In this document: in pieces, positions 27,571 to 62,770 of the stretch
How positions within the stretch are numbered: the stretch's first letter is position 1
Layout of the letters: every line of letters starts with the position of its first letter
NCBI RefSeq assembly: GCF_032854445.1
Contig: NC_088296.1
Coordinates: 5,791,246 to 5,855,245, forward strand
Length of the DNA stretch: 64,000 nt
Origin: Liolophura sinensis
Lineage: Eukaryota; Mollusca; Polyplacophora; Chitonida; Chitonidae
Reading direction: 5' to 3'
Program-made: the position numbers and the translations under genes
Notes under the pieces: model-generated
The model's input: only the letters and a program-made list of their open reading frames with translations
What the model was told of the DNA's origin: nothing
Databases searched by the model: none

Positions 27571-27711
27571 TCAAGCGCCATATCCATGCTCATCAAACCA
27601 TCTTCCTATTGCCTCAAAGTTGTTCTTCATCCACTCTATGTTACTTTGTGTCGTTACGATAGAGTCCTCGAGATCTTTCGCACCCGTGTAGTCGCCAATA
27701 AACCTTTTAAG
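27571..27711 (-). CDS. Aminopeptidase exon w18 (C-terminus, stop)
   Basis: Acceptor TGTATATTCAG|CTT, phase 0. Encodes [18 protein letters not shown] then [20 protein letters not shown] and stop TGA (27571-27573). Matches the M1 C-terminal pattern NI-W plus terminal WF/WL. Confidence 0.92.
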   Translation of the reverse strand, partial: LKRFIGDYTGAKDLEDSIVTTQSNIEWMKNNFEAIGRWFDEHGYGA

Positions 27712-33700: not shown

Positions 33701-36700
33701 GGGCACTCGGATAACGGTAAGATATTTGTATACCAGCCGTCAACCAATAATCGCAAGGCCAATTCCCAAAGTGACGTTTAACACAAGCAACCAAAGAGCT
33801 AAGAAAGTATATGACGTTCAAAGTTAGGACGAAATCATGCAAAAATAAGAGTTTAACCGGTGTCAATGACGAAACCAGGAACAGATGACAAACACGAATG
33901 TAAGTGATCCTTTGTCTGGTGGTATAAGCATACCCATGTATATATTTATTAACTGTGATCAGAACACATCATTTGGAGTAATTCTAGACAAGTGACATCT
34001 ACTAAATTAACATTAATACCACTAATTCTGCTAGAGGTGCTAGAGGCCTGGAAAGTTGATTCTGTTTAAGCGTTTACATAAATAGTTAAGGTAAACATAA
34101 CTGAGGTTTTACGGTGTCCGAATAGGCTGGTTTCATCGCTTACGTGGGACTATTCATCAACTAGCACATTGTCGCCTCTGCACTATATCTTTTTGTTTTA
34201 CTCCCCATGCTGTGGTTTTATGCATCCTATTAATACTTAATATATGTGCAGTCTTCTAAGCTAAGGTGAGCACTACTGACATCTAAAGCAATTAATATCG
34301 ATGAATGCAGACTGCAGGTCTTCGTGAGGATATAAATGACGGGGCTACGTAATCGCGCTATAAATGCAAACGTCAAACTTGTCTTGTGGTGGCAGTGATG
34401 TAGAGCTAGCGTAGTTAGCTTTAAAAGAAACGATAACAAATAATATAACTTCAGTTATTTCAAAAGAGACGTAGAAACAGGCCGAAAAGGCCATGGACAT
34501 TATTTTCTGACGTGCTTAGTAACTCTATTCATCAACTTTTAATGACGAATTTTTAAGAGGCAATAAGATTAGCCATGTTAGAGCAACGGGAAACACGATG
34601 TCGCGTCCCGCGGTATCCCACCATCATAGAAGTAAAAAGTAAAACAGAGCCCGGATGAAGTTAGCGGAAACAGCAGCGTTCTTGGGCTATAGAAATAACT
34701 CTCGCCTGATTGGTTACAACTGATAACATGGCGTGGCTGTCGATTGCCTCAATGTAGGGTAAAAGATTTTGTTTTCTTTCAACTGCGAAATCACGGTTGT
34801 GCTACGGGCACAAAAACAAAAGGTTATGCTTTTTACATATAATTTATAATTTATCGATGCATATATATAGATTTGGTCTAGTGTTGACCCAATCACCACT
34901 TCCGTTTTATTCTGTGAATAATATTGTCTAAAGAATTCTATGCCCGCCATTTTTCATGTTTCTGGTGTACATGTCCGTGTTTTATATGAAAATAATTCCG
35001 ACTGTCTAACGTTTGAGCAGGTACGAGTTATACTGAAAAGTTTGAAAGTCTTGTCAAGCGGATACAAGGTATCACGTAGTGATAAGAGTGCGAGTGATGT
35101 CCCCTTGATATTACTAAGTACCGATCCCAACTGATGACATTGAAAGATCCCTATTTTGATCGAAAACATACGTCAAAATTTTGATGACTACTTTCTCACA
35201 AGGCGGGCAAGGTAAAAATTTTAGATTGATAGCTTGGAACTCTTGCGCGGAAGCTAAACCTTGTGGTGGGTCAAAGCCAAATTAGATGGTTACATATTTA
35301 AGATTATCCCACAAACAGGCATCTACGAGTGTGAAAACATATACGAACTATTTAATTTGTAACACTGTTTGTCATTGAATTCTGTCATACTATAGTTGTT
35401 ACGGGCAAAAGAAGAAAAAAAATTATGACATTTCATCTCAGGACAAGTTGATATTCTCCAGGTTACATACAGCGTTGGCGGCCAATGTATTTGTGTCATC
35501 GGTACAACGTGAAACACGTATAAAATAATTAAACAAACATTTGTGTCATTGTAATTCAAGGCCTTTGTCCAGCACTTTCCGCTGCTACTGCCAGTTCTAG
35601 GGGAGGATGCTACTTTTGTTATTCCTGCTGTTTTTGTTGTTGTTGGACTTGGTGTTTTTCGAGTTCCTGATTGCTGGGTGTATTTTTGAAATGCGCATAT
35701 GCAGTTGCATTCGAGGGAGCACGTATTGGTATAAGTTGTAAATATGTGCAGTACAGACGCTCGATTGCTACTCACGAGTCTAAATGATTTTGTTTGTTTC
35801 CCCAGCCAGTTTTGAAATACTGTCTTCGAAGGAGTGACCTCATAAACATCTGCAAAAAGAAACTAGTTTGTCACAACAGAAAGTATTAAAATTACAATTG
35901 CTGTCATTTTTTTGTTCTCACGCGCCAAAGGAAAAGGCACAAATCCATCAAGAAGTCACCAATAACACAACAAATTTATCTAAAAGAACGTTATATGCCA
36001 AAATAATTTGATTATATAATGTCATAATAACATAATACAAGACAATAAAATTCATATTTAATTCCATTTAGAGAAAAAGATTAACTAAGATTTCAAACAA
36101 ATTAAACCTACAACACAGAACGCAGTCAGAAACCAAGCAGGGATCCGGGGTAAACCCACGGCAATCTGCAGGTGGCTGTCAGACCTTCCCACGTACAAAA
36201 CAACTCGAAAATAAAAAACAAAACAAAAAAAACAAGGTACACGAGAAATATGTCGATTTGGATAAGTATCTGTATTTGTAGTGAAGTGCCAGATACAAAC
36301 AACCGACCTTTGGCAAGCTACTGACGAATTTACCCCATGTAATGTACAGATATACACACCATGGTACTGACGAATTTCCCCCGGTGTGGTGTACAGATAT
36401 GCACACCAAGCTACTGACGAATTTCCCCCGATGTAACGTACAGATATACACACCATGCTACTGACGAATTTTCCCCCATGCAATGTACAGACACACACAC
36501 CATGCTACTGACGAATTTACCCCCATGTAATGTACAGATATACACACCATGCTACTGACGAATTTTCCCCATTTAATGTACAGATATACATTCCATGCTA
36601 CTGACGAATTTACCCCCATGTAGTGTACAGATATACACTCCATGCTACTGACGAATTTCCCCCATGTGATGTACAGATATACACACCATATCGCTGGAAG

Positions 36701-39700
36701 ACAAGGGGAATTCATTGAATGTTAGACAGAGCAAACGATCACAAGAGTTAATTGTCACCAAGATCCCAAAAGCCGCGAATTGACAGATGACCTGTCCAAG
36801 GTCGGATTTGAACCCGCACCTGGTGTATCCTGATGATTGAATGACAAGCACCTTAATTTCTTGACCACGGCCCGCTCCTTCCTAGCTAGATAGTACTTGG
36901 ATTGTCTGAAGGGGCAACTATGCTAAATAGTTAAAAACCATGATCACCCTTACCTGGAAAGAAGGATACAGAGTTGTTTGAGACAGCATGTGGCACGCAT
37001 ACTGAAACTCCGAGACAACTGCTCGCCAGGGGATGTAACTCTCTTCGGCCTGCAGATATTGTGAAGCATTCAAAGCAGTCTCGGCGTCAAGTAATCCAGA
37101 CCTTGCAATAAGACACACAAGCATTCTACAGCATGGCAAAAAGTAACACAAGCCAGCTAATCAAATATTAGCCATATCAAAATATCATATCGTACTGTAT
37201 GGACGAAGTGAAGTTTCAGTTGGGCCGCACCAAGTTACCCCCTGGAGATCATTCTCTCGTTTGATAGGTGCGTTTTTAAGATTAAGCTGTGGTTAGGTGG
37301 GGCGCCAGAAAACGGGTAATGACAAGTTTCAGTGTTAAAGAGGCAGAAGGTAGTTGACGATCTAGAGCACGTTAATCCAGTTGGAGGTAATTTAAAAATC
37401 TTGGCTCTAATCCAATACAAAAGACAGGTTCCGTCAAATATATATATTCTACCTAAACTGAAAATCCTCAAGTTTTAAGATCATTTAAGATCTCTTGACA
37501 TTTCTGAGACTCTCAAACGCTGGTATCTTGTTTTTTCACATTCTGTTGCCTAGAAAATATTTTTCGCTGTCGTGACATAACCTACATACGGCATGATTTA
37601 ATAGGCGAGGTCCCAATTCTCGTAGTTTCATGAATCTAAAACTAATTTTGCGTTACGTGATAGTCACTGTTGTATTCAAAGGGAAGTAATTCAAAGCCCG
37701 CCCATTCAGAATATTTAGCTGTGTTAAAAGGGGGGAAAGTGTCACAAGACGAAAACGACCCCCCCTCCAAAAAAAAAGGTGCAAAACGGAAATAATTTTG
37801 TTGAAAATATATCAAAAGGACTGGAAGAAAATTTATTCTATAACTTGAAATGGTACCAAGTTATAAATATATACGATGGATGGTACACATTAAATTAGAT
37901 GACAACAAGTAATTTGATGAGCTGATTTTAAGTACAAAGATGGTGGGAATAAAGCCCAATGGACTTGTTCTGTCCCGCTGAAACACTGGTATATCAATGA
38001 ACAATATTATAATAATGGCGGGGCCTCCGTGGCTCAGTTGGTTAGCGCGCTAGCGCAGCGTAATGACCCAGGAGTCTCTCACCAATGCGGTCGCTGTGAG
38101 TTCAAGTCCAGCTCATGGTGGCTTCCTCTCCGGCCGTATGTGGGAAGGTCTGACAGCAACCTGCGGATGGTCGTGGGTTTCCTCTGGGCTGTGCTCGGTT
38201 TCCGCCCACCATAATGCTGGCCGCCGTCGTATAAGTGAAATATTCTTGAGTACGGCGTAAAACACTAATCAAATAAATAAATAAAATAAATACAATAATG
38301 GTGAATAATGTAGTATACATTTCCTAGAGTGAGCAGTAAATTGGCTTAATTGCCAGTACATATTAACAATGTGTTTCAGATCGTTTGGTTGAGAAGATAT
38401 TCCCTTGAATGTGACTGGATAATTTGGAATGAATGATGCAGTCTATTCCATTCGCCAGGACCAGAGAACCTTTAGACATTATTTCCCAGAACAATCAAAC
38501 TATATGATCGATGCAAATTTAAATGCCGGATCCTTGTAGATAAGTGGTGGGTATCAGACCGTTTGCGGAACAACTGACGTAGTAATAAAAGAAGGAAGTC
38601 GTTATTGTACATGAACTTGGGACAAAGGACAAGGCATGAGAAGAGGTTGATATTGGCAAGATAAAGTATTTTGTAAGACTTGAAAATAGGGGCTTTACCG
38701 CCAAGTCGGTGTGATGCGGATATAACACTGAGAGCACGCTCAATTCGGTTTTATGCGGATATAACACCGAGAGCACGCTCATTTCGGTGTGATGCGGATA
38801 CAACACCGAGAGCACGCTCAATTCGGTGTGATGGGGATATAACACCGAGAGCACGCTCAATTCGGTGTGATGGGGATATATGACCGAAGCACGCTTTTGA
38901 AGAAGCAATAGCCGTTTCAGGTGTGTGGTGTACGCATTTACCCACAGGGGATTAGTATACGACAAATAAAGGTATATGAGAGAATAGTGGGGAATAAGCA
39001 ATGTTTTCTTATTTACTGAGTCTCCGTGGCTCATTTGGGTAGTGCGCTAGCGGAGTGTATGACCGAGGAGCCCGTCACCAATGCGGTCGCTGTGAGTTCA
39101 TCTTATGCTAGCTTCCTCACCGACCGTAAGTCGGAAGGCCTTGCAGCAACCTGTAGATGGTCGTGAGTTTCCCCATAATGCTGGCCGCCGTCGTATAAGT
39201 GAAATATTCTTGAATACGGCATAAAACACCAATCTAATAAATAAATGAACAAATATTTATATGAAACAAGACAAGGCTTGCGTCGTCAGTAAATAAGATA
39301 AACTTCAGTAATTCGGGTTACGCTGTGATACCATTTATATAAAATCAAGAAAAGAACAGGTCCATGTACAGGACCATGTACACTAGGGATCTAGTACAAG
39401 ACCGAATACCCTCATAGTTTACAACCTCGGTGCGGGCTGAAATGTATCTCACAAACCACTTATTTATTTATTTATTGATTTAGTTATTGATTGATTTATT
39501 TATTTGATTGGTGTTTTAAACCGTACTCAAGAATATTTCATTAAACCACTTATTAGTCAAAAGGGAATAACTTGAAGGCAAAAAAATCCACACAAAAAAT
39601 GAAGTATACACCAGATGAAAGACCAATAAAAACAGTCCAGGGAAAAAGATGGATATAGTTTTTCTTGGAATTTTTCTAATCGAGTAAAATTGTGTTAATA

Positions 39701-42700
39701 GAACAGGTTCTACGGTTGTCTGTTGTGACCCAGAAGTTATCAATTACGTCATATTTATACTTTTTGCCTGAAATAATTCGTTTTGTTTCACAGTCAAATC
39801 GGCGGATGCATTCATAGATCTATATGTATATTCATTTTGAATGATTAAACATAGCAGTTTAGTGTGTTTTAAGTAGCAAAAAACCTTATGTGACGTCACT
39901 GGCCCCATTGTGATCAGAAAAGATTTTTTTTTTTTTTTGATTGGTGTTTTACGCCGTACTTAAGAATATTTCACTTATACGACGGCGGCCAGCATTATGG
40001 TGGGTGGAAACCGGGCAGAGCCGGGGGGAAACCTAAGACCATTCGCAGGTTGCTGGCAGACCTTCCCACGTACGGCCGTAGAGGAAGGCAGCTTGAGCTG
40101 GTCTTGAACTCACAGCGACCGCATTGGTGAGAGGCTTCTGGGTCATTACGCTGCGCTAGCGCGCTAACCGACTGAGCCACGGAGGTCCCCGATCAGAAAA
40201 TACCACCATAGAATACAATACCCAAATGCTTTAACAAACTGTACAAAAAAAATAAGTCCAACTATTTTCCTGGACAGATTTTAATGATCTTTCATCTGAT
40301 AATGCTTCATTTTAGTTTTTTCTTTGCATTGAATGCGCAGTTCAGGATGTGGCATGATATATAAAACTACAACAATACCTCATCAGCTTCTTTCTTAGTG
40401 CTTAAAAATGGCTTTAAACTACAGTTTTCCTAAGTCAGTGGTCAGTACAGTCAGACCGGGAATTAAGTAGCATACCGCGGTGATGTCAACAGTAATAGTT
40501 GGCAAAAAAAGCTTTGTTGAGGGGAGAGCCCGAATTCGGGAGACTAAGTTGGTTCCACGTTCCCAGTATGTTTATCAATGACGTCATTTCCGCACATTTC
40601 CCACCAGTGACGGAAAATATGTATAGTAAGAGATTGGTTGCTAAGAAACACAAATATCCCTAAAAATGAAGAAAAATCTCCTTTTTGGCATATCTTTCCT
40701 CATTTTCGTTAAAGTCATGTTCTTTGTTTTGTAGTACATTTCATGTATCTTTTAAAAATAAATGCTACAGCTAATATAACTACTATTTCTGTATTAGAAT
40801 TTTCCCAACGGAGTATAGTATTTTAAAATATCAGAAACGTAGTTTGTGGGTGAGTGAGTGCTTGGGGTTTAACGTCGTACTCAACAATTTTTCAGTCATA
40901 TGACGAGAAAGTAATCCTTAGGGTGCATGTACCTCTTTGCTGCAGAACGGATTTCCACCGCTCTTTTATTTTGTGCAGCTTACCGAAGGCAAGTAAGCCG
41001 CCCCACCCGAGCCATTATACTGATACGGGTCAACCAGTCGTTGGTCTATCTATCTTCATGCTGAACGCTAAGCCAGGAAGTTACAACTTCCTCTATTAAA
41101 ATCTTAGGTGTGACTCGATCAAGGATTGTTCCTGGATCTACCGCTCTCGAAGTGGACGCTCTACCAACTGTGCTATCCGGGCCAGTTTAACACTTGTTGT
41201 TTGTTGGGAATCAGAAGGCATCATTGGCGTCATATACATGTACGTATATTTTCCCTTAAAATTAAGGCCCATTCCCCGAATGCATTCATAGCTCTATATA
41301 AACGTGCTTTTATAATGCAGTAGTCTAACACATCGTGAGAGATAATGGCCTGGTTAGAAGTCACCAGTCGAAATATAGCCAAGAAGAAATCGATGGTCGA
41401 AAATTACGATGTTTAGCCGTTTTCCTTAGCGGAGTTTTATCCTGATCTACATAGATCTTCGCTGATTTTTATGTAGGTCGAAGTCGTTCTAGCCATAGCT
41501 AAAACGGCTTTTAGCGCCAGGGGTAGATGCACAAGAGGCAATCAAAAGGCGGAGCCCGTTCCGTCCCCCTGGCGGGTCCCCTCCCCCAACCATGTTCAGT
41601 CTTCACGTAAACACTTACATAAACTTGGGGCAATGTACGCCGAAGCGTGTCTGCCTACATAAACAATCATGTACGCCGGACGGCGTACATGGATGCACGT
41701 GGAATAACCCCACAGCTTGTCCTATAACTGCACAGAGATCAGCGTATATAATATTCACTGTTGTAAGCTTGTGTTAGCTTAGGCCACCAAGTGCACAAGT
41801 CTATCTATATACCGGGATGTTTACACAGTCGCAGGCATACGCACACCCTCGATTCACCTATATCCGGTATTGCACAACAGACCACAACTTGCTATTTTTA
41901 TTTCGAGGATTACAACTAGCAATTGGGCATGGGCGCCTAGCATAGCCAAGCAGCTACAAACAACAGCCAAGCAAAACCAAGCAAAATCAAGCAGCTAGAA
42001 AGCAAAAATGCGCAGTAGACGAGACTTTTTTGGGTTGGGTACCAGAACGCAACATGGAGCCCCAAGGAAGCGGAAGTTGGCAAAAGCAGCAAAAGAGAGC
42101 CCACTAGCAAGCGGAAACGAGCGAGAACGCCATACAGCCCGCTGTCAGGCACAAGACAGACCCTCGGTCCCAAACTCGAAGCTTTTGGTCGGCTTCTTTA
42201 TAGAGGCAAGCACGCTAGAGAACAGCTCCGAATTGGAGTCAAGCGTGGTGGGTGTATAGCCAGGCACCATGTATCCAGTCCGCAGACGAGGGCAGACCCG
42301 TTCGAGCTGTTCCAAAACCAGGCTTCGTCCTCAAAGCAGGAGTGGACCTCAATCGAAGCCCTTTTGCTTTGTCACAGGCTTCGATAAAAGCCAGGCGGTC
42401 TTTTTTCTTCTGCGGGGTAGTCCGCTCCTCGCCCAGACGGCAGAGTTTGGGAGCACGTTATCGCCACAGCGCCTCGACCCCTCCCAGGGGTCCACCTCTT
42501 TCTCGAGAAAGAAGCCGTGTGTTGGCGTTTTCACGTCCGTTGCTGACTTTTTGCCTTCGTCGGTTGGGACTAGGACGAGGATGGTTCTTATGTATATATA
42601 TTTCGACGCCCTGGTCGAGGCGAAGCGTGTGCAGGTGTATTCCCAAGCGCCAAGTCGGATGCTTTCATTGTGTCCATTTGGCTTCGGTGGTGGGGCATCC

Positions 42701-45700
42701 AGCAGAGCGGTTTGAGTCTCCAAGCGTTGGCGCTTTGGCCTGCTTCGGCCAAGGCTTGTAGGGTGTCCTTTGGGGGACTGGGGCAATGGCGACGAGTCAT
42801 CCAGGCAATTGGTTCCAGGTGATGTGGTAACCCTCCTTTGTATGGAAGAGCCTGTTCAGCTCTACCACGATCTCCAGCCCGGCGCGCCTTCCTGTTACAA
42901 GTGGAGGGAGCCAGAAGAGCGTCTTGTGCCAGCTGGATTTTTCGGCTTCAATGTCTTCGGCGCACCCTTCCAGCACTCGCTCTAGGCCCTTCGTTGCCCA
43001 CGCAGCCTTTGTTGTGGTTTCGTCGCCCTCTGTGCACTGCAAGACAGCCAGGGGGCTTCTGGAGACGTCGCCCGGGCTGTGGTACCTAGGGACGGTCCAT
43101 CTGCGGGCCCCGCCTTTTGGTTGTCCATTGTGCATCTACCTCTGGCGCTAGGAGCCATTCTAGCTGTAGCTAGATGTATGTAGCCGATCGCGCTTTGAAG
43201 TACATAGGATTGGCCCAGGTTGAACACAGGCTTGGAGCCTTCAAGGGGACGGAGGGGCTCCCATTCAATTTATAATGAACAGGGCCTGGGAGCCCCCAGG
43301 GAGGACGGAGGGGCTCCCAGCCTGAGGTGTGCCAGAACCGATAGAACATATACTAACGTTTAAGTTGCTTCTCTTACCTTTATGTCTGGAAAGGGTTCAG
43401 TTGTTTTGAATGAGTGAGGGAGTGCTTGGGGTTTAATGTCGTACTTAACAATTTTTCAGTTATGTGACGACGAAAGAATCCTTAGAGTGTATGTAATGTT
43501 CCTCCTTCTAGCACGCTCTTTTATCTGGTGCTACAGGAGTGAGACGACTTTCTGAAGGCAATTAACCCGCACCCCCAAGTCATTATATTAATACGGGTCA
43601 ACCAGCCGTTGCACTATCCCCTTAATGCTGAACGTCAAGTAAGTTACAGCTTCCTACTATTTTAAGGTATTGGGTGTGACCTGACCTAGGAGTGACCCTG
43701 GATCTACCAACCCAGTTGTTTCGAATAAAATACTTTATTTCGTCTGAAGTACGGTATGTAAAAATGCACTTTCAAAAACACATTCTCCGGCCATAAGTGG
43801 GAAGGTCTGGCAACAACCTGGGGATGGTTTCCCCTGGGCTCTGTCCGGTTTCCTCCCACCATAATGATTGCCGCCGTCGTATAAGTGAAATATTCCTGAG
43901 TACGGCGTATTTGAATAAATAAATCAAAAGCACACAGCTTTTGTTATAACGCATTAATCGAACTTTTCAGAAAATGTTAAGTGGCACTATGTGTAACGTG
44001 GATGAATTAGTGAGTCAAGCGTTGTGTGCGACTGGAAAAATGCTGAACTTTAGGCGAAATACTCTACCTGACAAAATTCCAGACATCATTCACAATCTGA
44101 GCCCGGTTTTCAACGGAGAAGACCTGAAAAACAGTTTTTGTATTAACAGTATTATCGTTAATAGCAATTACAATTTCTAAATATAGCACAGATCCTAGTG
44201 CTAAAATTTGGCTGAGATTACTGCGGGTTTCGAACCAGAGACCTCAGAGTCAGGCACCAAATCGCCAACAATACATGTCAACCATCTAGACCGCTCGACC
44301 AACAGGCCTTCCAAAATAGAAGGTAGTTGACCGGCAGGCTTTACAGCGAATATGCATTACCCTCTGATGATTTTTGTATTATTTAAAGAAAAAAAAACAC
44401 ATGGTAACAAACAAGACAGTACGAAAAGAGTAAACACTTACTAAAGAATATCGCCTGAAATAAAAATAAAAAACTGATAGTCTGGGAAAGCGCCTTCTAA
44501 ACCGAAGATTCGAAAGGCTGCAAATGTGCACTAAGGAATTACAAACTTCCTATTCTGTCAAAAGTGCCTGCCCACGCTGACTTCCGTACGTGGGAAGGTC
44601 TGCCACTTCCTGTGGATGGTTGTGCTTTTCCCCCGGGTACTGCCCGGTTTCCTCGAATCATAATGATGACCACCGTTGTATTAGTGAAATATTCTTGCGT
44701 AAGGCGTAAAACAGCAATCTAATAAAAAAAAATGAATCAAAATTTCCTGTAATCTTGCAGCAAATTTCATTGTAAAACGTAGCATTGCATTCCGGAGTAA
44801 AGTACTGTATAAATTGGTTAGCATGCTTGGGTTGTACTATTACAAAAATAATAATGCATGTTTATAGCTTTGTGTCACAGCAAGGAAAGATGTTCGTAAG
44901 CAAACTGGTTGTTGTTTTTGCTGTATCATAATTTTACCAGTGTATATATAGGTACTGACGTTGGAATATGACGAATCTGATTGTGAAATTCTTATGCTAC
45001 GACACATGCGCCTTGCTACTTTACCACGTGATCCTCTTTAAGCTGACCAATCAGAGCGTCCCAGTTGTCTGCCTCATAGTTGACCCGGTAAAACCCGACT
45101 TGCCGGACATTGCCGATCACCCAACTGTTATTGCTCCAAACAGGTATGAGTTTACTATCACATATTTCAACTGAAAAGAGTAACCGCCAATGTCAGCCAT
45201 AGAAATACTTCACACATCATGTGGATAATAAGCGAATTATAAAAATTGCACTTTTCACAACCGGTGAAACACAATTCAAACGTAAATTCCCAAAGACTGG
45301 CTTCTTTATATAATAAACCTAGCAACACAATTTCTTAAAATTCAGAACGTAGTACACAACACATTTATGTTTAAAACACTCAAAAAGTCAGAATTTTATT
45401 AAAATATCAAGCTATGAAGCAAAGGATCCAATTTGCTCGCTCACTTGACACATTCCATCACTAGTAATAGTAAAATGATTGAAGTGGAGTAACTTACCTT
45501 CTTCTTCATTCCACCATAGAAGTGTAGTTCGGGAGGTGTTGAAATCTTTTACCAGATTTGTGGTAAAGGTAAAGGGAATGTCCCATTTATAGCTAGAACA
45601 ACAGCAACGAGAAAACTATCACCCCTAAGAGATGAAAACACCCAACCACTTTGTACTGGAGGGGAAATGTCAAATTTATAGCTACAACAACAACAACGAG

Positions 45701-48700
45701 AAAACTATCACCGCTAAGAGATGAAGACACCCAACCACTTTGTACTGGAGAGGAAATGTCAAATTTATAGCTACAACAACAACAACGAGAAAACTATCAC
45801 CGCTAAGAGATGATGACACCCAACCACTTTGTGCTGGAAGGGAAATGTCCCATCTATAGCTACAACAACAACAACGAGAAATCTATCACTGCTAAGAGAT
45901 GAAGACACCCAACCACTTTGTGCTGGAAGAGAAATGTCACATCTATTGCTACAACAACAATAAAGAGAAAACTATCACTGCTAAGAGATGAAGACATCCA
46001 ACCATATAGTGCTGGATGGGAAATGTCCCATATTTAGCTACAACAACAATAACGAGAAAACTATCACTGCTAAGAGATGAAGACACCCAACCACTTAGTG
46101 CTGGAAGGGAAATGTCCCATCTATAGCTACAACAACAACGAGAAAACTATCACCGCTAAGAGATGACGACACCCAACCACTTTGTGCTGGAAGGGAAATG
46201 TCCCATCTATTGCTACAACAACAATAACGAGAAAACTATCACTGCTAAGAGATGAAGACATCCAACCATATAGTGCTGGAAGGGAAATGTCCCATCTATT
46301 GCTACAACAACAATAAAGAGAAAACTATCACTGCTAAGAGATGAAGACATCCAACCATATAGTGCTGGATGGGAAATGTCCCATCTTTAGCTACAACATC
46401 AATAACGAGAAAACTATCACTGCTAAGAGATGAAGACACCCAACCACTTAGTGCTGGATGGGAAATGTCCATTCTATAGCTACAAAAACAACAACGAGAA
46501 AACTATCACCCCTAAGAGATGAAGACACCCAACCACTTTGTACTGGGGGGGAAAGGTCCAATTTATAGCTACAACAACAATAACGAAAAAACTATCACCC
46601 CTAAGAGATGAAGACACCCAACAACTTTGTACTGGAGGGGAAGCATCCCATTTATAGCTACAACAACAATAACGAAAAACTATCACCCCTAAGAGCTTAA
46701 GACACCCAACCACTTTGTACTGGAAGGGAAATGTCAAATTTATAGCTACAACCACAACAACGAGAAAACTATCACCCCTAAGAGATGAAGACACCCAACA
46801 ACTTAGTACTGGAAGGGAAATGTCCCATTTATAGCTACAACAACAACAACTAGATAACTATCACAGCTAAGAGATGAAGACATCCAACTATATAATGCTG
46901 GATGGGAGCTGTCCCGTCTATAGCTACAACAACAACAACGAGTAAACTATCACCGCTAAGAGATGAAGACACCTAACCACTTAGTGCTGGAAGGGAAATG
47001 TCAAATTTATAGCTACAACAACAACAACAACAACAACAACAACGAGAACGCTATCATCCCAAGGAGATGAAGATACCCAACCACTTATTACTGGAGGGGA
47101 AATGTCAAATTTATATCTACAACAACAACAACGCAAAAACTATCACCTCTGAGAGATGAAGACACCCAACAACTTAGTACTGGAAGGGAAATGTCAATTT
47201 TATAGCTAAAACAACAACAACGAGAAAACTTTCACCATTAATGGATGAAGACACCCAACCACTTAGTACTGGAGGGGAAATGTCAAATTTATAGCTACAA
47301 CAACAATACCGAGAAACTTTCACCCCTAAGAGATGAAGACACCCCAACCACTTTGTACTGGAGGAGAAATGTCAGATTTATAGCTACAACAACAATAACG
47401 AGAAAACTATCACCTCTAAGAGATGAAGACACCCAACAACTTTGTACTGGAGGAGAAATGTCCCATCTATAGCTACAACAACAACAACGAGAAAACTATC
47501 ACCGCTAAGAGATGACGACACCCAACCACTTTGTGCTGGAAGGGAAATGTCCCATCTATTGCTACAACAACAATAACGAGAAAACTATCACTGCTAAGAG
47601 ATGAAGACATCCAACCATATAGTGCTGGAAGGGAAATGTCCCATCTATTGCTACAACAACAATAAAGAGAAAACTATCACTGCTAAGAGATGAAGACATC
47701 CAACCATATAGTGCTGGATGGGAAATGTCCCATCTTTAGCTACAACAACAATAACGAGAAAACTATCACTGCTAAGAGATGAAGACACCCAACCACTTAG
47801 TGCTGGATGGAAATGTCCATTCTATAGCTACAACAACAACAACGAGAAAACTATCACCCCTAAGAGATGAAGACACCCAACCACTTTGTACTGGGGGGAA
47901 AGGTCCAATTTATAGCTACAAAAACAATAACGAAAAAAACTATCACCCCTAAGAGATGAAGACACCCAACAACTTTGTACTGGAGGGGAAGCATGCCATT
48001 TATAGCTACAACAACAATAACGAAAAACTATCACCCCTAAGAGCTTAAGACACCCAACCACTTTGTACTGGAAGGGAAATGTCAAATTTATAGCTACAAC
48101 CACAACAACGAGAAAACTATCACCCCTAAGAGATGAAGACACCCAACAACTTAGTACTGGAAGGGAAATGTCCCATTTATAGCTACAACAACAACAACTA
48201 GATAACTATCACAGCTAAGAGATGAAGACATCCAACTATATAATGCTGGATGGGAACTGGTCCCGTCTATAGCTACAACAACAACAACGAGAACGCTATC
48301 ATCCCAAGAAGATGAAGATACCCAACCACTTTTTACTGGAGGGGAATGTCAAATTTATATCTACAACAACAACAAACGCAAAAACTATCACCTCTGAGAG
48401 ATGAAGACACCCAACAACTTAGTTCTGGAAGGGAAATGTCAATTTTATAGCTAAAACAAACAACAACGAGAAAACTTTCACCATTAATGGATGAAGACAC
48501 CCAACCACTTAGTACTGGAGGGGAAATGTCAAATTTATAGCTACAACAACAACAACGAGAAACTTTCACCCTAAGAGATGAAAACACCCAACCACTTTGT
48601 ACTGGAGGAGAAATGTCAAATTTATAGCTACAACAACAATAACGAGAAAACTATCACCTCTAAGAGATGAAGACACCCAACAACTTTGTACTGGAGGAGA

Positions 48701-51700
48701 AATGTCCCATCTATAGCTACAACAAACAATAACGAGAAAACTATGACCGCTAAGAGATGAAGACACCCAACCACTTTGTAACGGGGGATGGGGGGGGGCG
48801 GGGGGAAATGTCCAATTTATAGCTACAACAACAATAAGGAGAAAACTATCATCCCTAAGAGATGAAGACACCCAACAACTTTGTACTGGAGGAGAAATAT
48901 CAAATTTATAGCTACAACAACAACAACGAGAAACTATCACCCCTAAGAGATGAAGACCAACCAACCACTTTGTACTGGAGGAGAAATGTCAAATTTATAG
49001 CTACAACAACAACAACGAGAAACTATCACCCCTAAGAGATGAAGACACCCAACCACGTAGTACTGGAGGGGAAATGTCAAAGTTATAGCTACAACAACAA
49101 GAACAACAACGAGAACACTATCAGCGCTAAGACATAAAGACACCCAACACTTAGTACTGGAAAGGAAATGTCAAATTTATAGCTACAACAACAACGAAAA
49201 AACATTCACAATTAAGTGATGAAAACACCCAAGCACTTAGTGCTGCAAGGGAAATGTCAAATTTATAGCTACATCAACAACAACAACAACGAGAACGCTA
49301 TCACCCCAAGGAGATGAAGACACTCAACCACTTAGTGCTGGAGGGGAATGTCAAATTTATATCTACAATAACAACAACGCAAAAACTATCACCGCAGAGA
49401 GATGAAGACACCCAACCACTTAGTACTGGAAGGGAAATGTCAAATTTATAGCTACAACAACAACAACGAGAAAACTTTCACCATTAATGGATGAAGACAC
49501 CCAACCACTTAGTACTGGAGAGGAAATGTCAAATTTATAGCTACAACAATAATACCGAGAAACTATCACCCGTAAGAGATGAAGACACCCAACCACTATG
49601 TACTGGGGGGGAAATGTCCCATTTATAGCTACAACAACAATAACGAAAAAACTATCACCCCTAAGAGATGAAGACACCCAACCACTTAGTACTGGAAGGG
49701 AAATGTCAATTTTATAGCTACAACAACAACAACGAAAAAACTTTCAACATTATTGGATGAAAACACCCAACCACTTAGTACTGGAAGGGAAATGTCAAAT
49801 TTATAGCTACAACAACAGTAACGAGAAAACTATCACTTCTAAGAGATGAAGACACCCAACCACTTTGTACTGAAGGGGAAATGTCAAATTTATAGCTACA
49901 ACAACAATAACGAGAAAACTATCACCCCTAAGAGATGAAGACATTCAAACACTTTGTACTGGATGGGAAATGTTCCATTTATAGCTACAACAACAAAAAC
50001 GAGAAAACTATCACCCCTAAGAGATGAAAACACCCAACCACTTAGTACTAAAAGGGATATGTCAAATTTATAGCTACAACAACAGCAACGAGAAAACTAT
50101 CACCGCTAAGAGATGAAGACACCCAACCACTTTGTACTGGAGGGGAAATGTCCAATTTATAGCTACAACAACAACGAGAAACTATCATTCCTAAGAGATG
50201 AAGACACCCAACCACTTTGTACTGGAAGGGAAATTTCAAACTTATAGCTACAACAACATTAACGAGAAAACTATTACCGCTAAGAGATGAAGACACCCAA
50301 CCACTTAGTTTTGGAGGGGAAATGTCCAATTTATAGCTACAACAACAATAACGAAAAAACTATCACCCCTAAGAGATGAAGACACCCAACCACTTTGTAC
50401 TGGAGGGGAAGTGTCCCATTTATAGCTACAACAACAATAACGAGAAACTATCACCCCTAAGAGATGAAACATCCAACCATATAATGCTGGATGGGAAATG
50501 TCCCATCTATAGCTACAACAACAACGAGAAAACTATCACTCCTAAGAGATGAAGACACCCAACCACTTAGTACTGGAAGGGAAATGTCAAATTTATAGCT
50601 ACAACAACAACAACGAGAAAACTATCACCGCTAAGAGATGACGACACCCAACCACTTTGTGCTGGAAGGGAAATGTCCCGTCTATTGCTACAACAACAAT
50701 AACGAGAAAACTATCACCGCTAAGAGATGAAGACATCCAACCATATAGTGCTGGAAGGGAAATGTCCCATCTATAGCTACAACAACAACAACGAGAGAAC
50801 TATCACTGCTAAGAGATGAAAACACCCAACCACTTAGTGCTGGAAGGGAAATGTCAAATTTATAGCTACAACAACAACAACGAGAAAACTATCACTGCTA
50901 AGAGATGAAGACACCCATCCACTTAGTGCTGGAAGGGAAATGTCCCATCTATTGCTACAACAACAATAACGAGAAAACTATCACTGCTAAGAGATGAAGA
51001 CATCCAACCATATAGTGCTGGATGGGAAATGTCCCATCTATAGCTACAACAACAGCAACGAGAAAACTATCACCCCTAAGAGATGAAGACACCCAACCAC
51101 TTTGTACTGGAGGGGAAATGTCAAATTTATAGCTACAACAACAACAACGAGAAAACTATCACCCCTAAGAGATGAAGACACCCAACCACTTTGCACTGGA
51201 GGGGAAATGTCAAATTTATAGCTACAAGAACAACAACGATAAAACTATCACCGCTAAGTGATGAAGACAGTTAACCACTTTGTACTGGGGGGGAAATGTT
51301 CCATTTATAGCTACAAAAACAATAACGAGAAAACTATCACCCCTAAAAGATGAAGACACCCAACTACTTTGTACTGGAGGGGAAATGTAAAATTTATAGC
51401 TACAACAACAATAACGAGAAAACTATTACCGCTAAGAGATGAAGACACCCAACCACTTAGTACTGGAGGGGAAATGTCAAATTTATAGCCACAACAACAA
51501 CAACGAGAAAACTATCACCGCTAAGAGATGAAGACATCCAACCATATAATGCTGGATGGGAAATGTCCCGTCTATAGCTACAACAACAACAACGAGAAAA
51601 CTATCACTGCTAAGAGATGAAGACGCCCAACCACTTTGTACTGGAGGGGAAATGTCCCATTATACCTACAGCAACAACAACGAGAAAACTATCACCGCTA

Positions 51701-54700
51701 AGAGATGAAGATATTCAACCACTTAGTGCTGGAAGGGAAATGTAAATCTAAATATTTAGTAATTAACTACAACAACAACCAGAAAAGCGGCATTATTCTT
51801 ATACTTGTACATTTAATAGAGTGAACAAATCTAATCACATGTTTTGGGCAATGAGAAATTAATACTACTTAATACTAAGGAAATGAGAAAATATTACCGC
51901 TAATTTTTAAGACAATGGACCACTGTAAACCCTTAGCTTCAAATCGGTCAGAAATAGTATTTTCAGTACATGAACCGCAATGATGTACATATCAGATGGG
52001 AAGACAGCACAGCATTTTTATTTATTATAGACCAATGACACTTAATTAACATCACTGCATACTTGTTTTACCTCATCCTGTCTAAGCCATGACGGTGCTA
52101 GGAGGGCGTCTAAATTGGCACAATTTAAGCATATATACGCACAGTTGGAATAAAACCCTAACTCAGGTATATTACCAAGAGGCCGTATTTCATCGGTTAC
52201 GCGTGACCATTCATCAACTATCACACTGTCGTCGTTGGTCTGGGTTTACTCTCTATGTTCTAAGGCTTTTATATACGACAGTTTTACTACTTGCCCGTAC
52301 GGCGACGAGAAAGTCTCGCTCTCCTCTTCCTTCTCATAGAGAACAAACCGCTTTTGAGAAACAGTGATGGAATGGTTGGCTGATCGTTTTACTGTCACTA
52401 CGGGGTAGTTCATCTGGAAAAGCCACGTGGCCAGGATGTCTCGCACTGGAACCCCGTGATCGGAACTCTGCAATGAATATCTTATAATATATTAACAAAA
52501 GATCCCATGAAGGGAACCTTCTGTGGTATTGTGTATTCATAATAAATTAATAAAAAATGTATGAAAACCCCTTATCCAGACACCTTGTATATGTAAATAT
52601 ATAACTGGTAATTAAAAGAGTTAAAACTCTCAAATGAATACCTATTGCTATGCTGTCCGAAGATGGGTATCTGATTTCTTGGGAAACGATGACCTGATGT
52701 CCTGTAACACGTCCACGTGGTGTAGCATTGCGAAGCCTGAATGATGCATGCCTGTAAATCATTCGACCGACCGACCGACTGACCGACAGACAGACAGACT
52801 CAGCATATCCAAGAGCTTAAGATGGAGTCAATTCACCCCACCTGGTAGATTGGAGTTGGTTCTGAGTGGTTTAGGAAACGACTTTAAGATTTTAATTCCC
52901 AAGCATACTTAAATCGTATACACGAACGCTTACGACTCGTACTAACAGCGGCGTTAATTTATTTATTTACTTGATTGGTTCTTTATGCCGTAGGCTACTC
53001 GTTTTACTTATACGACCTCGGCCAGCATTATGGTGGAAGGAAACCGTGAAAAGCACGAAAGAAACCCACGATAATCCGTAGGTTGCTGTCACGGTCAGGT
53101 TGGGTTGCGTTGGATATTCAGCTCCCGTGTATGTCGAGCTTAAGGCTGAAATATGTATACCTAACGTTCGTTATTTAATTAATTTATTTGATTGGTGTTT
53201 CGCGCTGTACTCAAGAATATTTCACTTATACGACAGCGGCCAGCATTATGGTGGGAGAAACCGGGCATAGCCCGAGCCGATTTGAGTCGCGTAGTTATTT
53301 CGCACATGCGAGTGCTTACGACCTAACACAAACGTCAGATAGAGAACCCGAGCATGAAGAGCTTTGTGAAATGTTATGTAACTGAAAAATCTTGCATAAA
53401 TTCTTATTAGAGACAAAGGTTGAGACGGATTGTGTGTGTTTTCTGGCATCATTTCCTGTCTCATCACCGTGACCCCTGAGACCTCGGCGTTCTTCAAGAT
53501 TTCTGTACAAAATTTGCTAACGGCAAAGATGATGTAAAGTGAAAGGTAGAGAGCGACGCATGTACTGTAAGGAGTATGATGAGGTGAGGGTGATATGAAT
53601 ACCTAAAAAACATTTACCTTGACAAGGGGCCTATTTGTATGACGAAATGAAACGCTGCAGCTCAGTTTGAGGAAGTTACCTCTCAAGTTTGATGAATTAT
53701 TGCCTTACTATTGCAAATCATAATTTTTCTGCTTCCAGTCTTTGACTTGGCCTCTTATGAGGTTCAAAGCCTTATATGGTTAGATCGGTTTTGTGGTTGG
53801 AATCTCCATACGACGAATTAATCCTCAAAAAAGAATTTGTTTTGTAGTTATATCGATTTTGTGGTTTGATCGATTTTGTGGTTAGATTGGTTTTGTGGTT
53901 GGAATTTACATATGACGAATTAATCCCCAAAAGAGATTTTGTTTTGTGGTTAGATCGATTTTGTGGTGAGATCTATTTTATGGTTAGATCGATTTTGTGG
54001 TTGTAATCTTCATATGACGAATTAATCCATAAAAGAGATTTTTTTCAGTTGTTAGATCGATTTTGTGGTTAAATCGGTTTCGGGGTGGAATCTCCATGTA
54101 ACGAATTAATCCACAAAAGAGATTCTATTTTGCAGTTAGATCGATTTTGTGATTTAATCGGTTTTGTGGTTGGAATCTCCATATAACTAATTAATCCACA
54201 AAAGAGACAGGACTGCGCATGACGAGTCAGTAACTTGCTAACTTGTTCTCCCTGTGGACTGGATACGTCGTCTTGCAACTAAGAAATTGACACCACCATA
54301 TAGGCCTAAATGAGCAAGCAGTCAGTCAACCAAGCAGTTGGGATGAGAAACAAGAACATTTTTCCTCTGTTTAAAGAAAAAAACTTACCCCTCGTGCAGC
54401 CTCGAGTGCCTCTGCAAAAACACTGTGTGTTACAGAGCCGTAGACATTGGTCTTCAGATAGGACTGCAACTCAGACAAAACTGTTGGATCAACTGATTAT
54501 AGTTTCAAGTGATGGACCACAGGAGTTAATCGGAAGAAAGTCATTTTGGAAAAGCTATATTTTGATGTACGTTGATGCTACAGTCTGGAAATTATATGCA
54601 AATTCTTAAGCCAAAAATTTGATTTCTGTGCGTATGGCCGAGATTTTACATGATTGCACGTGGCTATATGTTAAAACAATGTCACACTCAACAGTCACGC

Positions 54701-57700
54701 ACAATCGGAAACAACTGTCAGTTAAAGGATAAGAAAACATAAAAACGATGCCAAAAAACTTATTTCCCTTTATGGTAATATTTTTGCCGATTTTTATTTC
54801 AGGAGTAAAGGGTATCTGAAAAATTTTGTATGGTGCATACTTGGGACCACTTTTTCATATTTATCGTCGTTGGACAACAGTGTTGTTGACACGGATGCGA
54901 TGCACGCGTAATAAATTTATTTGAATGTAAATTTGTTGTTTACATCGAAGGGTATCCATTTAATCTGAATTATAATAATAATTATGAATATATTAAAACT
55001 ATATATATATATGATCAAAATCCAGGTTGAACAAATTTATTAGTTGCAAAGACCAAAATCTAGTGCAAATATAATTATTAATCATATGTTCCATTCTCAT
55101 TTATAACATTATTGCACATAGACTACAACTGCCAAAAGGCGGTTCCACGTACCCACCATACAAAAATTATTTCCAAATGTCTTTTTCTCTTAAAAGAAAA
55201 CTGGAATAAACTACTGAAGATCACATTTACGACTACTTTTTTGGCGCTCTTTCATCTGGACTTCACCTTTAACGTTATGGCCCATGACTAAGAAAGGTAT
55301 AACGCTATGGGGGATGTCAAGGGGAGATAATTCAGCATTATAACCCATTACGGAGTGACAGAGCCCACTGAGTTGCACCAAAGAGTTACACTCAGATGGC
55401 GCTAAGCCTGTCTGGGTCATGAGCTAAAACGGAATATTCCTACCGTCCAAAAATGTAGATGTCTCACATGTCCAATGCAGGAAATATTCCTGACGATGGC
55501 ATATATGTGATGTCGAAATATTGAGTTATAGAAATGAAACAACAGCATTCTTCGTAGTTATACTTACACAGAATATATAGGTAAAGAAGTAGAAAGGCTA
55601 ACAAAGATATACACGGCACTACTTTCTCAAAAAAGGAACGCCTAGGTGGCACATTGTGGTGGACACGAGATGTGGATATAACCCTTGACTTGTGACCTAG
55701 TTCCATGGCTCCATTAGCGTATCTTTATTTTATAATTTTTCACTCTCTGCCTCTTTCACATTGTAATTTAGGCTGAACATGACAGCCCATTAGAAGAAAA
55801 CACCACGAATAACATAACATAACCTGTTATTTTGGAAGAGGGATGGAAATAGATCTACATAATGATAACTCTGTAAATCAACATTTAATCGGGAATTCTT
55901 ACGAGGCTGTGGAATGTGTCATGTTAAATCAACCGGAATCGCTCACCCGAATCGCCTGTAAGAACGCATCCTCTCCCAGGAAATGTTGAAACATACGCAG
56001 AATGGAAGCTCCCTGGTAAAACAACAGTGTGGAAAAACTAAGTGAAATTAAATCTGAAATGGTGAAGAATATTTTCTCTTATTTGAAACAGAGTTAGAAT
56101 AAAACAAAAACAATTGGGCCTTTTGTATTCGAAAGATAATAACGTTAATAATACCTAGAGGTAGAATGCCCAATTGCTTTATTCTATTCAATCATATCTC
56201 CATCTTCCATGGTTCCCTTCCGCCATAATGCTGGCCGCCGTCGTATAAGTGAAATATTCTTCAGTACGCCAATCAAATAAATAAATCAATCAATCCCAGG
56301 CCAGTCTCACTGTTTGTAGGGCCTATAGGTAATAACAAGGGCCGGCGACACTCACGTGGTCATTTTGCACTGAATAACGTTAATTGAAGATCACATGTCT
56401 TGTCCATCAATTCAGCTGTGAACATTATACGTGGAAAAGTTAGTCAGAAATTTACCAAAATATCAGTGGTTTTCCACGGGACTACCCACGGTTCTTCACC
56501 GATGAAACTCCATAAGTAAAAACTTCTTGAGCTTGTTGAACAACAATCAAATACATATGGTTGCCCGTCTTCACCGCTATATAGGATTGACCTTAAAAAT
56601 AAGATCTGCAACGAATAGTCTATAATTGCCAATCTGAAAAGGAAAAGAGCAGAAGTATGTTCCAGTAAGCATGGCATTTGCTTTCATTTTACTTGTGCAA
56701 AAAAAAATTTCCTGACATATACAAAAGGTTGGGACATATGTGCAAGTAAAACTGAAGCTATTACACAACCTTGTGTAAATGTATTTCTACACGGCCCCAA
56801 CAGAGCTGGGCATATGTACAAATGAATAGTTACAGAATAAATACCAAACTAATTGGCCGAAGAGTGATTAAAATTCATACTGAAACATACGGCATACCTT
56901 TTTTGGCCGAGCAGAGATTACAAGACATAATAAACAATACAACCTCCATTTTTTGGCCAAGGAGAGATTGCAAGTCATAATGTACCGTACGGCATACCCC
57001 TTTTGGCCGAGGAGTGATAACAAGTCATACTGAACCAGACGGCATACCCTTTTTGGCCGAGGAGAGATTACAAGTCATAATGAATCATACGGCATACCTT
57101 CTTTGGCCGAAGAGCGATTACAAGTCATACAGAACGTGCAGCAAACCCATTTTTGGCCAAAGAGTCATTACAAGTCATACTGAACGTGCGGCAAACCCAT
57201 TTTTTGGCCAAAGAGTCATTACAAGTCATACTGAACCTGTCGGCATCCCTCTCTTGGTCGAGCAGAGATAACAAATCATAATGAGCCATACGGCATACCT
57301 TTTTGGCCGAGGAGAGATTCCAAGACACAGTGAACCGTACGTCATACCTTTACATAGGGCAGAGAGTCGTAGATATTTCGAATCTTGGAGAGTGTATCGA
57401 CAGGAAACTTTAGCGGATGAGATGTCTTTCTGTTATCTTTGTTAAAAGCGTCTTGTAACTGGTTAACTATCGTTAGTTGGTGCTAAAACACAATAGAACA
57501 AGCCAGATTTTTTTATTTATTCATTTTTTAAAAAGTAACTGGTGTTTTATGCTGTACTCAATAGTATTTTACTTATAAGACGGCGGCCAGCATTATGGTG
57601 GGAGGAAAATGGGCAGAGCCCGGGGAAAACCTACGACCATGCGCAGGTTGCTGCAAGACTATTTCACTTATAAGACAGCAGCCAGCATTAAGGTGCATGT

Positions 57701-60700
57701 AGGAGGAAACACGTAAACATGGGAACTTACGACCATCCGTAAGGATGCTGGCCGGATTGGTGTGAGGTTCCTGCGCCATTTCGCTGCAGTAGCACACTAA
57801 CCACTCGGCCACGGAGCACCACTCCCTCTTGCCTTTCGAGTCATCACGTTAGCGCAGAACTGTCCATAAGCGGGATAAAGCCCATGGCATTTTATGCAGC
57901 TGCGTGCTTCAAGGCTTCACATTTAAATTGACAGGCTAGAAACAGATTTGCTTTTTGAGATCTTGTAACTAACAATGTTGAATAGGCAGTGACACCTAGA
58001 TGTGGTTTTTGTGAGACCGTCAGCCGTTTTTAGTTGAGGTATAATTCCTACCATCAGTTGAATTTAAATATGGTTTTGTTTATGTTTTCCACACATTATG
58101 GAACATAATCGAGAGCTAAAAATTTATTTACTTATTTATTTCATTGTTTTTTACGCCGTACTCAAGAATATTTCACTTATACGACGGCGGCCAGCAAAAT
58201 GATGGGAGGAAACCAGGCAGAGACCGGTGGAAACCCACGACCATCCGTATGTTGCTGACAGACCTTCCCACTTACGGCCGAAGAGGAAGCCAGCATGAGC
58301 TAGACTTGAACTCATAGCGACCGCACTGGTGAGAGGCTTCTGGGTCATAACGCTGCGTTAGCGCGCTAACCAAGTGAGTCACGGAGGCCCCTGAGAGCTG
58401 AAACATACATTTGCAATGCCGGACAAAAACGTCAACCAGGTACATGAACCTTCGCTTTTTCGATCAAGGGGAATAACCTACCATTTTCCAATCTGGATGA
58501 AAAGAGTTAACTCCCGTGTTGTGGAAAAAGTCAGCAAAACCTTCATTCAGCCAGATGTCATCCCACCATTCCATCGTGAGTAGATTGCCAAACCACTTGA
58601 AGCAAATGAATAAGCGATAAATTGAATGGTTAAACAGTAGTTCTGAGATCTGTTTTATTTCTTCCAGCTTACTATTAATAAATATAAATAGCCCTCAACA
58701 TGTCAAGCACGTATATGTAGAGTATAAAACGCGTTACTTTTAATCCAAGAGTTTATCTGACTTACTAGTAGATACTAAAGACCATAACATCACAATAAGC
58801 ACAAATGAACACAGAAATGAACAGTAGAAACTCTAAGCAACTACTGTGAAGAAAAAATGATCTTAAATTTGGTAAAAGCAACATTGTCCACCCTGGCAAC
58901 GGAGTCACGTGATTAGATAATGGCGGTTCGCGAAGTCCATATCCTGTCCGATTGTTTTCGAGGGAATGACAGAAACAGCGACAAAGAGGAGTGATAAAGG
59001 TCGATATGAAACACAGAGGTTCACATTACATCAGTCAGATCAAAACGTCGGTGAACACGCAAACCACCTACTTAGTCATCTTTGTGTAAGTGATTTCGCT
59101 CATTTTAAGCGGTTTTGTCTTGCTTGTGAGGATTCGCTGCCACCAAAGGTTAATGTGGGCGGTTAATGGGGAAAACTGATGGCGTCTTGCATTCGAACAA
59201 GTTTTACTTGAAGAATGTGCGTAATATTTCTTCTAAAATCTGAAAGCTGGTGGACCGACTGTTTATTTGTCGCGGGCAATGTAATCTTTACTTCCTGGAA
59301 GTTGTCTATAGGTGGAGCTCTTGAACTCGTGGGGTTACGGCAGTAAAACCCTTCATAGTACCGCATATAGTATCGAGCGGCGTATGTGTATAGCCTATGT
59401 ACACGTTCTGAAAAATAATCTACCACGTGTGACAGTGTAACAGAATGCATTCTGTTATAGCAACAGATTATTCTGTTACAGCAGCCGATTTATTCTGTTA
59501 AGTATAGCACATATATTCTATTTAGTCAACATAAGATTGTATAAGACCAACGGGATATGACACAATGCTGTGTCATAAGAACGGAATACATTCTAACATC
59601 TCTCAGCCAGCTGTCATGTAACAATACATTGTATGTTTATAGTTGTACATTTCTTAGCGCGGCTTGGTCACGTGACGTGTTCATTTCAGTCGTAGCCGGG
59701 AAGTCTAAATATGGAACATTTTGTAAATTTCTAGCCAATCAGTTTCGATTGACAGATGCTTCTGGAAAATGACCGTGTTTATGTTTTTTCTTTGCTCTTT
59801 CTCGAAATCACAATATCGATGACAATATATAAGGCGGCAGATTTGTAGGCTTAGGAAGGTCATTGATAGCTATAAACAGAGATAAACAGTGATACGACAG
59901 TGATAGTTGGAGAGACATAAGCTGCTTTTGACGGAGTTACAGACGATGCATCACAGCTATAGTTAGAAGAAATCGTTTGTACCACTGGAGTGGAAAAGCC
60001 GGTGTAATTTGGATCAGCCGGACCAAGACTAACGGGTGATTGCTGGCTGACATTCTGCTGTTTGTGAACTGAGATTATCGTGTATATATTAACTACTTGC
60101 TGGAGGATTTGTGGTCTCGATACCAGCAGAGTATCAACCTCCCTTCGTAAGACGAGTCGGAGGATTCAACTGTGTTATGGTTGGGGGAGATCAAAAAACT
60201 GTGCCAGTAAAGAGGAAACGGACATCCCGAAACAGGATTGGAATATTCCAGGGCCGATTAGACAACGAAAGAAAGTCAAGTTAAGGACTGTAGCGTAACT
60301 CACGTCTGAAGTATTTGTACATACGAGTAAGCTTCAGTCATTTATTGTAACATATATTATGTATCCTTTGCATTGCTATTTGTAGTTTAACTCATTATGT
60401 TCCTTTTTGATTTATTATCTTGTTAAACCAACCATTTAAGTGTTTGAAAGTGTTACTCTGTTTGACCCATGTTAGGCTCGTTATCGGGAATTGATTTTGG
60501 CTTATTATACCGATACCCTAACACAACAGACCTTCTGCTTAGATATTACATTTTTTGAGTGTGACGAGTGGGTTCTAAAGTTGTTTCATTGACGTTATAG
60601 CTGGGATGCTGTTAATTTAGGATGGTCCCTCACCTGATGTACGATTTCGTGGGAGATAATTGAGGCTCCTAGCTCATGGGCCCGCGTTGAAGTTACGCCT

Positions 60701-62564: not shown

Positions 62565-62770
62565 CTGCCAGACAGAAAAGGACAGCTATACATGCATGGG
62601 AATTGGTGAAGATAATTCAGTAGTGTCGCCCATTACTGAAGAATATAGCCCATGGAATTACCCCAAATGAGTTATCTTTCCTTAGACAACATCCAGATGG
62701 CGCTAGGCCTATCTTGGTCACGGGCCTTAGCCGATTATTGTTTCCCACTGTCGATCAGCGTCGTACTTGA

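Follow-up and report, generated by a model that had tools for sequence, protein, structure and literature searches.

We analysed a 64,000-nucleotide stretch of the chiton genome of Liolophura sinensis (contig NC_088296.1, positions 5,791,246 to 5,855,245 of the forward strand; hereafter the window, whose own numbering is used throughout), in which an 89-bp minisatellite runs into an exon of an aminopeptidase gene. The gene lies on the minus strand and was identified as an M1 aminopeptidase by Peptidase_M1 and ERAP1_C matches. Our hand-made model places exons a to p at 27571..62622, with the 5′ end of exon a unsettled and a stretch between exons k and l looked for but not found. The genome was first published as that of Liolophura japonica, with 632 sequences reported (PMC11068029), and the species name was later corrected to L. 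sinensis (PMC12441733). The assembly holds 609,464,459 bases in 632 contigs. It is the single assembly behind all results below; the splice matrices come from one gene family, and the gene models were made by hand.

When exons h (52467-52295), i (45592-45498) and j (45170-45025, where the ERAP1_C match begins) are joined, the reading frame stays open. Exon i, called w9 in a preliminary description of this DNA, is 95 nt long and was placed by frame and homology. The spliced h-i-j protein aligned without a gap over the h/i junction with glutamyl aminopeptidase and aminopeptidase N chains, in agreement with the exon start at 45592 that had been proposed earlier. Exon i ends at a strong donor (AAG followed by GTAAG, 45493..45497; 12.1 bits in a 67-donor matrix). 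Exon h, upstream of the array, ends in CGG followed by GCAAGT, so that the intron is of the GC-AG type. This GC donor (52294-52293) was placed by hand from frame and homology, and scored 4.8, whereas the other donors averaged 7.8. None of the 67 other donors carried GC, and the paralog donors called at the h-i place were all GT (7/7), in a procedure that penalised GC. The paralog L017_L018 has an intron at the same position, followed by an exon starting YKWDIPFTY, a start (YKWDIPF) that exon i shares; this intron is 602 bp long and contains no array detected by the repeat finder TRF.

The h-i intron of the window gene is 6,702 bp long, and 92% of it is one tandem array. TRF reported this array at 45577-51747 with a period of 89, 69.1 copies and 85% matches. 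Wrap-around alignment of the circular consensus on the minus strand extended it from 51750 to 45574, as 69 units followed by 19 nt of exon. The array described earlier at 45571..51775 is therefore real, with its ends corrected to 45574 and 51750. Each unit comprises an intron end with its acceptor, followed by about 20 exon-like nucleotides. Exon i contributes its first 19 nt as the last 19 nt of the array, and the repeat continues unbroken into the exon, whose start is the boundary copy. Unit 68 (45593..45681) bears the real acceptor, TTCTAG. The exact copy number may be off, because the HiFi reads behind the assembly reportedly averaged 8,347 bp at 14x (PMC11068029).

The first 19 nt of exon i matched the unit consensus at 16/19 positions and the best single unit at 18/19. 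No 19-mer outside the array, on either strand of the window, reached 16/19 against the unit (0/115,572; maximum 14), and the other 66 mapped acceptors reached at most 12/19. These data confirm the observation, made in the preliminary description, of an array built from a 3′ splice site with the genuine exon edge as its boundary unit. The same controls exclude a chance resemblance. When a 371-bp query of unit DNA was searched against the genome, all 20 reported matches fell within the array, and no copies elsewhere, as a dispersed satellite or mobile element would leave, were found among the reported matches (the search skips very common words, and its match counts are lower bounds).

We next consider how the units vary. 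Seven pairs of units were identical, all of them within a block duplication of ~1.25 kb (46213..48716 on the minus strand; 47473-48716 versus 46213-47472). About a dozen unit columns were invariant, and the AG was conserved at 0.99 and 1.00 compared to a column mean of 0.91. Exon-like columns were not better kept than the others (0.890 versus 0.917). At unit columns 9-10 the exon reads GG, part of a conserved Trp codon (TGG), and the 69 units read TT (32), GG (27) or other (10). Because the exonic GG belongs to a conserved codon, the TT form is derived and arose within the array. The exon edge itself is older than the array, since it encodes residues conserved in M1 enzymes and since L017_L018 has the same intron position without an array. 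We also asked whether the age of a unit could be read from its place in the array; with a divergence rank of 43/69 the boundary unit was not the most divergent, and we dropped the idea and drew no polarity from it.

Upstream of the real acceptor the array presents 68 decoy positions, 67 of which retain the AG. The approximately 70 acceptor look-alikes counted earlier thus stand as dozens, with these exact figures. The reported difference between TTCTAG at the real site and TTGTAG in the repeats is also accurate: across the 69 units, the position before TAG is G in 66, T in 2 and C in 1, the C occurring only in the unit with the real site. If this difference was meant to single out the true site, it does not, because position −4 carries little weight and 51/68 decoys score at or above the real acceptor.

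Scores were obtained with weight matrices based on splice sites of the window gene and its paralogs (60 acceptors, 67 donors). Junctions under the score cut-offs are absent from the mapped-junction set. L027_L028, a near-duplicate of L019_L020, was left out of the matrices and of the end-density count given below, and was kept among the 101 arrays, in the permutation and in the background rates. Unit-by-unit scoring, which the preliminary description had suggested as a check, gave 6.74 for the real acceptor and a mean of 7.38 for the 68 decoys. The 5th percentile of acceptors was useless as a cut-off here (297/333 other intron AGs pass), and we used the real site's own score instead. AGs reaching that score occurred at 21.1 per kb in the array compared to 2.1 per kb in the background. 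Further AGs in the unit passed the 25th percentile of acceptors, at column 26 (44/67) and column 57 (33/59).

Donor signals within the array showed a different picture. None of the 729 array GTs reached the 25th percentile of real donors, compared to 3.5% of background GTs. No decoy (0/68) was followed 30-300 nt downstream by a donor of that strength, when donors inside the array were considered. The unit length of 89 is not divisible by 3, and none of the 68 decoys gave an in-frame, stop-free extension of exon i: 67 ran into a stop upstream of the exon, and the last was frame-shifted.

Overall, our data very probably reflect a "mirage" minisatellite that arose by tandem duplication of the exon i acceptor junction, with the exon-proximal acceptor spliced and the decoys passive. 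Under this model, the acceptor junction of exon i would have been duplicated in tandem, and the copies would have accumulated towards the intron, with the outermost one kept as the functional edge of the exon. The array would later have grown by unequal exchange or slippage, including the ~1.25-kb block duplication. Exon definition would then select the exon-proximal acceptor, which lies nearest (95 nt) to the strong exon i donor, because no array GT reaches the 25th percentile of real donors and the exon i donor scores 12.1. We infer that 45592 is the site in use and that the decoys are silent, passive passengers; rare decoy use would yield frame-shifted, prematurely stopped transcripts.

Several observations weigh against this interpretation. 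The real acceptor is not the top-scoring one by weight matrix. At a lower threshold, 95/729 array GTs exceed the 5th percentile of real donors, and the array GTs are not independent of one another. The two decoys nearest exon i share its donor, at 184 and 273 nt (calculated from unit plus exon length). The conservation of the unit AG above the column mean could hint at constraint, and the below-average GC donor of the intron could favour leaky splicing. We lowered our confidence because of the gaps on the donor side, namely the GTs above the 5th percentile, the shared exon i donor and the non-independence of the GTs.

To place the array in context, we mapped tandem arrays and exon junctions in ten M1 genes, namely the window gene and nine paralogs (of ten paralog loci fetched, L013_L014 yielded no junction and has no row); the loci were chosen, not random. 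Seven of the 101 arrays crossed a mapped junction. Three are in the window gene, at the exon e donor, the exon i acceptor and the exon m acceptor, and four in paralogs: two in L011 (donor of exon d, acceptor of exon m), one in L019 (donor of exon d) and one in L021 (donor of exon l). In the window gene, TRF and unit alignment placed the two further junction arrays on the minus strand. The one at 30923..31624 has ~86-bp units, spans the exon m acceptor (exon m, 30968-30801) and includes 46 nt of the exon; the one at 56853..57351 has ~50-bp units, spans the exon e donor (exon e, 57482-57348) and includes 4 nt of the exon. Unit-level alignment gave exon overlaps of 4 nt (e), 46 nt (m), 42 nt (L011 d), 78 nt (L011 m), 9 nt (L019 d) and 20 nt (L021 l). 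The copies lay on the intron side in each of these six other M1 junction arrays. If the exon i array was taken as a singular case, that no longer applies: the same gene has two more junction arrays, M1 paralogs have four and a myosin gene has one.

The myosin array was found in a 9-kb piece (L043) that we had picked for its many exons, before its repeats were seen. This piece contained two arrays, one of which (31 bp, 6.2 copies) begins in a predicted exon end and repeats its GTAAGT donor. At L043 3041-3232 each 31-bp unit contains, in this order, AG, CTGTTGTTG (or a form differing by one base) and either GTAAGT or GTAAAT, and could in principle be a 9-nt microexon. Five of the six donors in this array scored 9.06, and the remaining one 6.32. 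Elsewhere in the same piece, neighbouring exon matches at L043 695-799 and 1791-1886 correspond to the same myosin positions (118-152 and 121-152), and this pair looks like mutually exclusive exons.

We tested for enrichment of arrays at junctions and rejected it. Uniform placement over the gene spans predicts 18.2 junction crossings compared to the 7 observed, and 0.9999 of permutations had at least 7 (this null ignores selection against arrays inside exons). Over 129 junctions, six array ends (score of at least 100) fell within exon nt 1-50 and one within exon nt 51-100, compared to 1 to 9 per 50-nt intron bin. Together, the crossings below expectation and the array-end counts suggest that the M1 junction arrays were born like any other minisatellite and took in an exon edge by chance. 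A rule that the unit length of junction arrays is never divisible by 3 held in 8/8 arrays ((2/3)^8 = 0.039); it was formulated post hoc, is contradicted by the 60 and 108 bp repeats of PGBD5, and was discarded.

Near-identical paralogs differed in array presence. The tandem paralogs L019 and L027 have flanks that are 97.9% and 99.4% identical and differ at the exon d donor, where L019 (also encountered as L004) carries a 67-bp array of 17 copies and L027 (also encountered as L003) has the unit once. An array is also present in L005, a third copy of the gene. Further into the intron, L027 carries another array, with a 38-bp unit. Near-identical paralogs with and without an array imply that gain or loss of such an array can leave the exon edge as it was. 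Together with the like architecture of six other M1 junctions and one myosin junction, they speak for the mirage interpretation of the exon i array. With respect to allele length, we had one assembly only, and this difference between near-identical M1 paralogs at the exon d donor is what it offers.

These results allow the alternatives to the passive mirage to be weighed. The array could act as a splicing rheostat, in which decoy use or skipping of exon i leads to premature stops and decay, and array length sets the aminopeptidase dose. The decoys that score as well as the real acceptor, the tenfold-range contrast in AG density (21.1 versus 2.1 per kb), the lack of any frame-safe decoy and the GC donor of the intron all fit such a role. 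There is also a reported precedent in the human ABCA7 variable number tandem repeat (VNTR), where skipping of exon 19 rises with length (PMC5954066). Against it, all array donors score below the 25th percentile of real donors, retention of the ABCA7 unit is itself reported as unchanged with VNTR length (PMC5954066), and 7 junction crossings where 18.2 were expected give no sign of selection for them. We regard a rheostat as unlikely. Its broader form is quite unlikely as well: that chitons have junction minisatellites at a percent-level share (7/129 in the chosen M1 sample, L027_L028 excluded) and that some arrays, such as that of exon i, are length-tuned decoy banks setting how much transcript is lost to decay. 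If true, the decoy bank here would offer acceptors as strong as the real one in an intron with a GC donor, and no decoy would be frame-safe.

The preliminary description had proposed that decoys could supply new coding sequence by exonisation that extends the reading frame. The acceptor AG in 67/68 upstream units would allow this in principle, but the failure of all 68 decoys to give an in-frame, stop-free extension and a unit length that is not a multiple of 3 make it very improbable for this array as assembled. That a chance or dispersed satellite merely happens to end at exon i, in a locus rich in minisatellites, is hardly credible given the 19-nt in-register match with no equal among the 115,572 controls, the confinement of the unit to this array among the reported genome matches, and the same architecture at other junctions.

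Tandem arrays are abundant in the wider sequence. Arrays with a period of 9 or more make up 33.6% of the window, and in the ten paralog loci the share of tandem arrays is 22.9%. In the published repeat table, the class "other (simple repeat, microsatellite, RNA)" accounts for 0.08% and unclassified repeats for 14.04% (PMC11068029), and chiton tandem arrays may be counted under the latter; the loci compared here were chosen, not random. The window also contains a 73-bp array at 65-9771 (133 copies, 92% matches, nearly 10 kb). About 400 bp downstream of its end, a plus-strand cytochrome P450 gene has its first open piece (PF00067 matches in three pieces from 10196 on). Elsewhere in the assembly, contig C99 has seven COX1 matches ~15.5 kb apart, and looks like concatenated mitochondrial genomes. 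The mitochondrial genes run nad3-nad2-cox1-cox2-atp6, a molluscan order that spoke against amphioxus or a sea star as the source.

Repeats at exon boundaries have been described in other animals. Mirage minisatellites were reported in amphioxus Adh3 and in the globins BflGb6 and BflGb9, with data said to suggest regular splicing (PMC3087553), and lancelet PGBD5 was reported to have boundary repeats of 60 and 108 bp, for which Adh and troponin C were named as parallels (PMC3902484). In human segmental duplications, internal tandem repeats that grow at exon-intron boundaries can reportedly change gene structure (PMC2812944). The ABCA7 VNTR lies in intron 18 and has a 25-bp repeat, the first GT of which serves as the canonical exon 18 donor; the donor one unit (25 bp) downstream is reportedly used at times, which leads to a stop (PMC5954066). 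In molluscs, a narrow literature search with limited subscription coverage found no mirage; an abalone report describes a 27-bp minisatellite inside an intron, not placed on a boundary in the accessible part of that report (PMC6905558).

In its anatomy, the chiton array fits the definition of a mirage. It is a tandem array of minisatellite-size units (89 bp x 69), its unit spans an exon/intron boundary with the authentic copy at the array edge, in an exon known from protein homology, and many units carry splice signals, with AG in 67/68 upstream units. Amphioxus mirages are likewise described as having units that span the intron/exon boundary, many with AG or GT (PMC3087553), and as affecting either boundary of an exon (PMC3087553, PMC3902484). 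The chiton array differs in size (69 units over 6.2 kb compared to the 6 and 3 units reported in two BflGb6 haplotypes), and in occurring in a mollusc and being known from the genome alone. The ABCA7 VNTR, as reported, is on the donor side, has a 25-bp unit and comes with measured effects on splicing and expression; the accessible part of its description mentions no further exon sequence in the repeat (PMC5954066). The repeats of segmental duplications are reported as average 30-bp units present 4 times, with exon and intron length changes between primate paralogs (PMC2812944). As far as our literature search shows, the phylum is new, as is the presence of several cases in one genome sample, which suggests that mirage repeats are not a peculiarity of lancelets. 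Such arrays are natural substrates for asking why the last acceptor would be chosen when dozens upstream are as good by weight matrix, and paralogs with and without an array, together with arrays on donors and acceptors of several genes, lend themselves to direct tests of exon definition.

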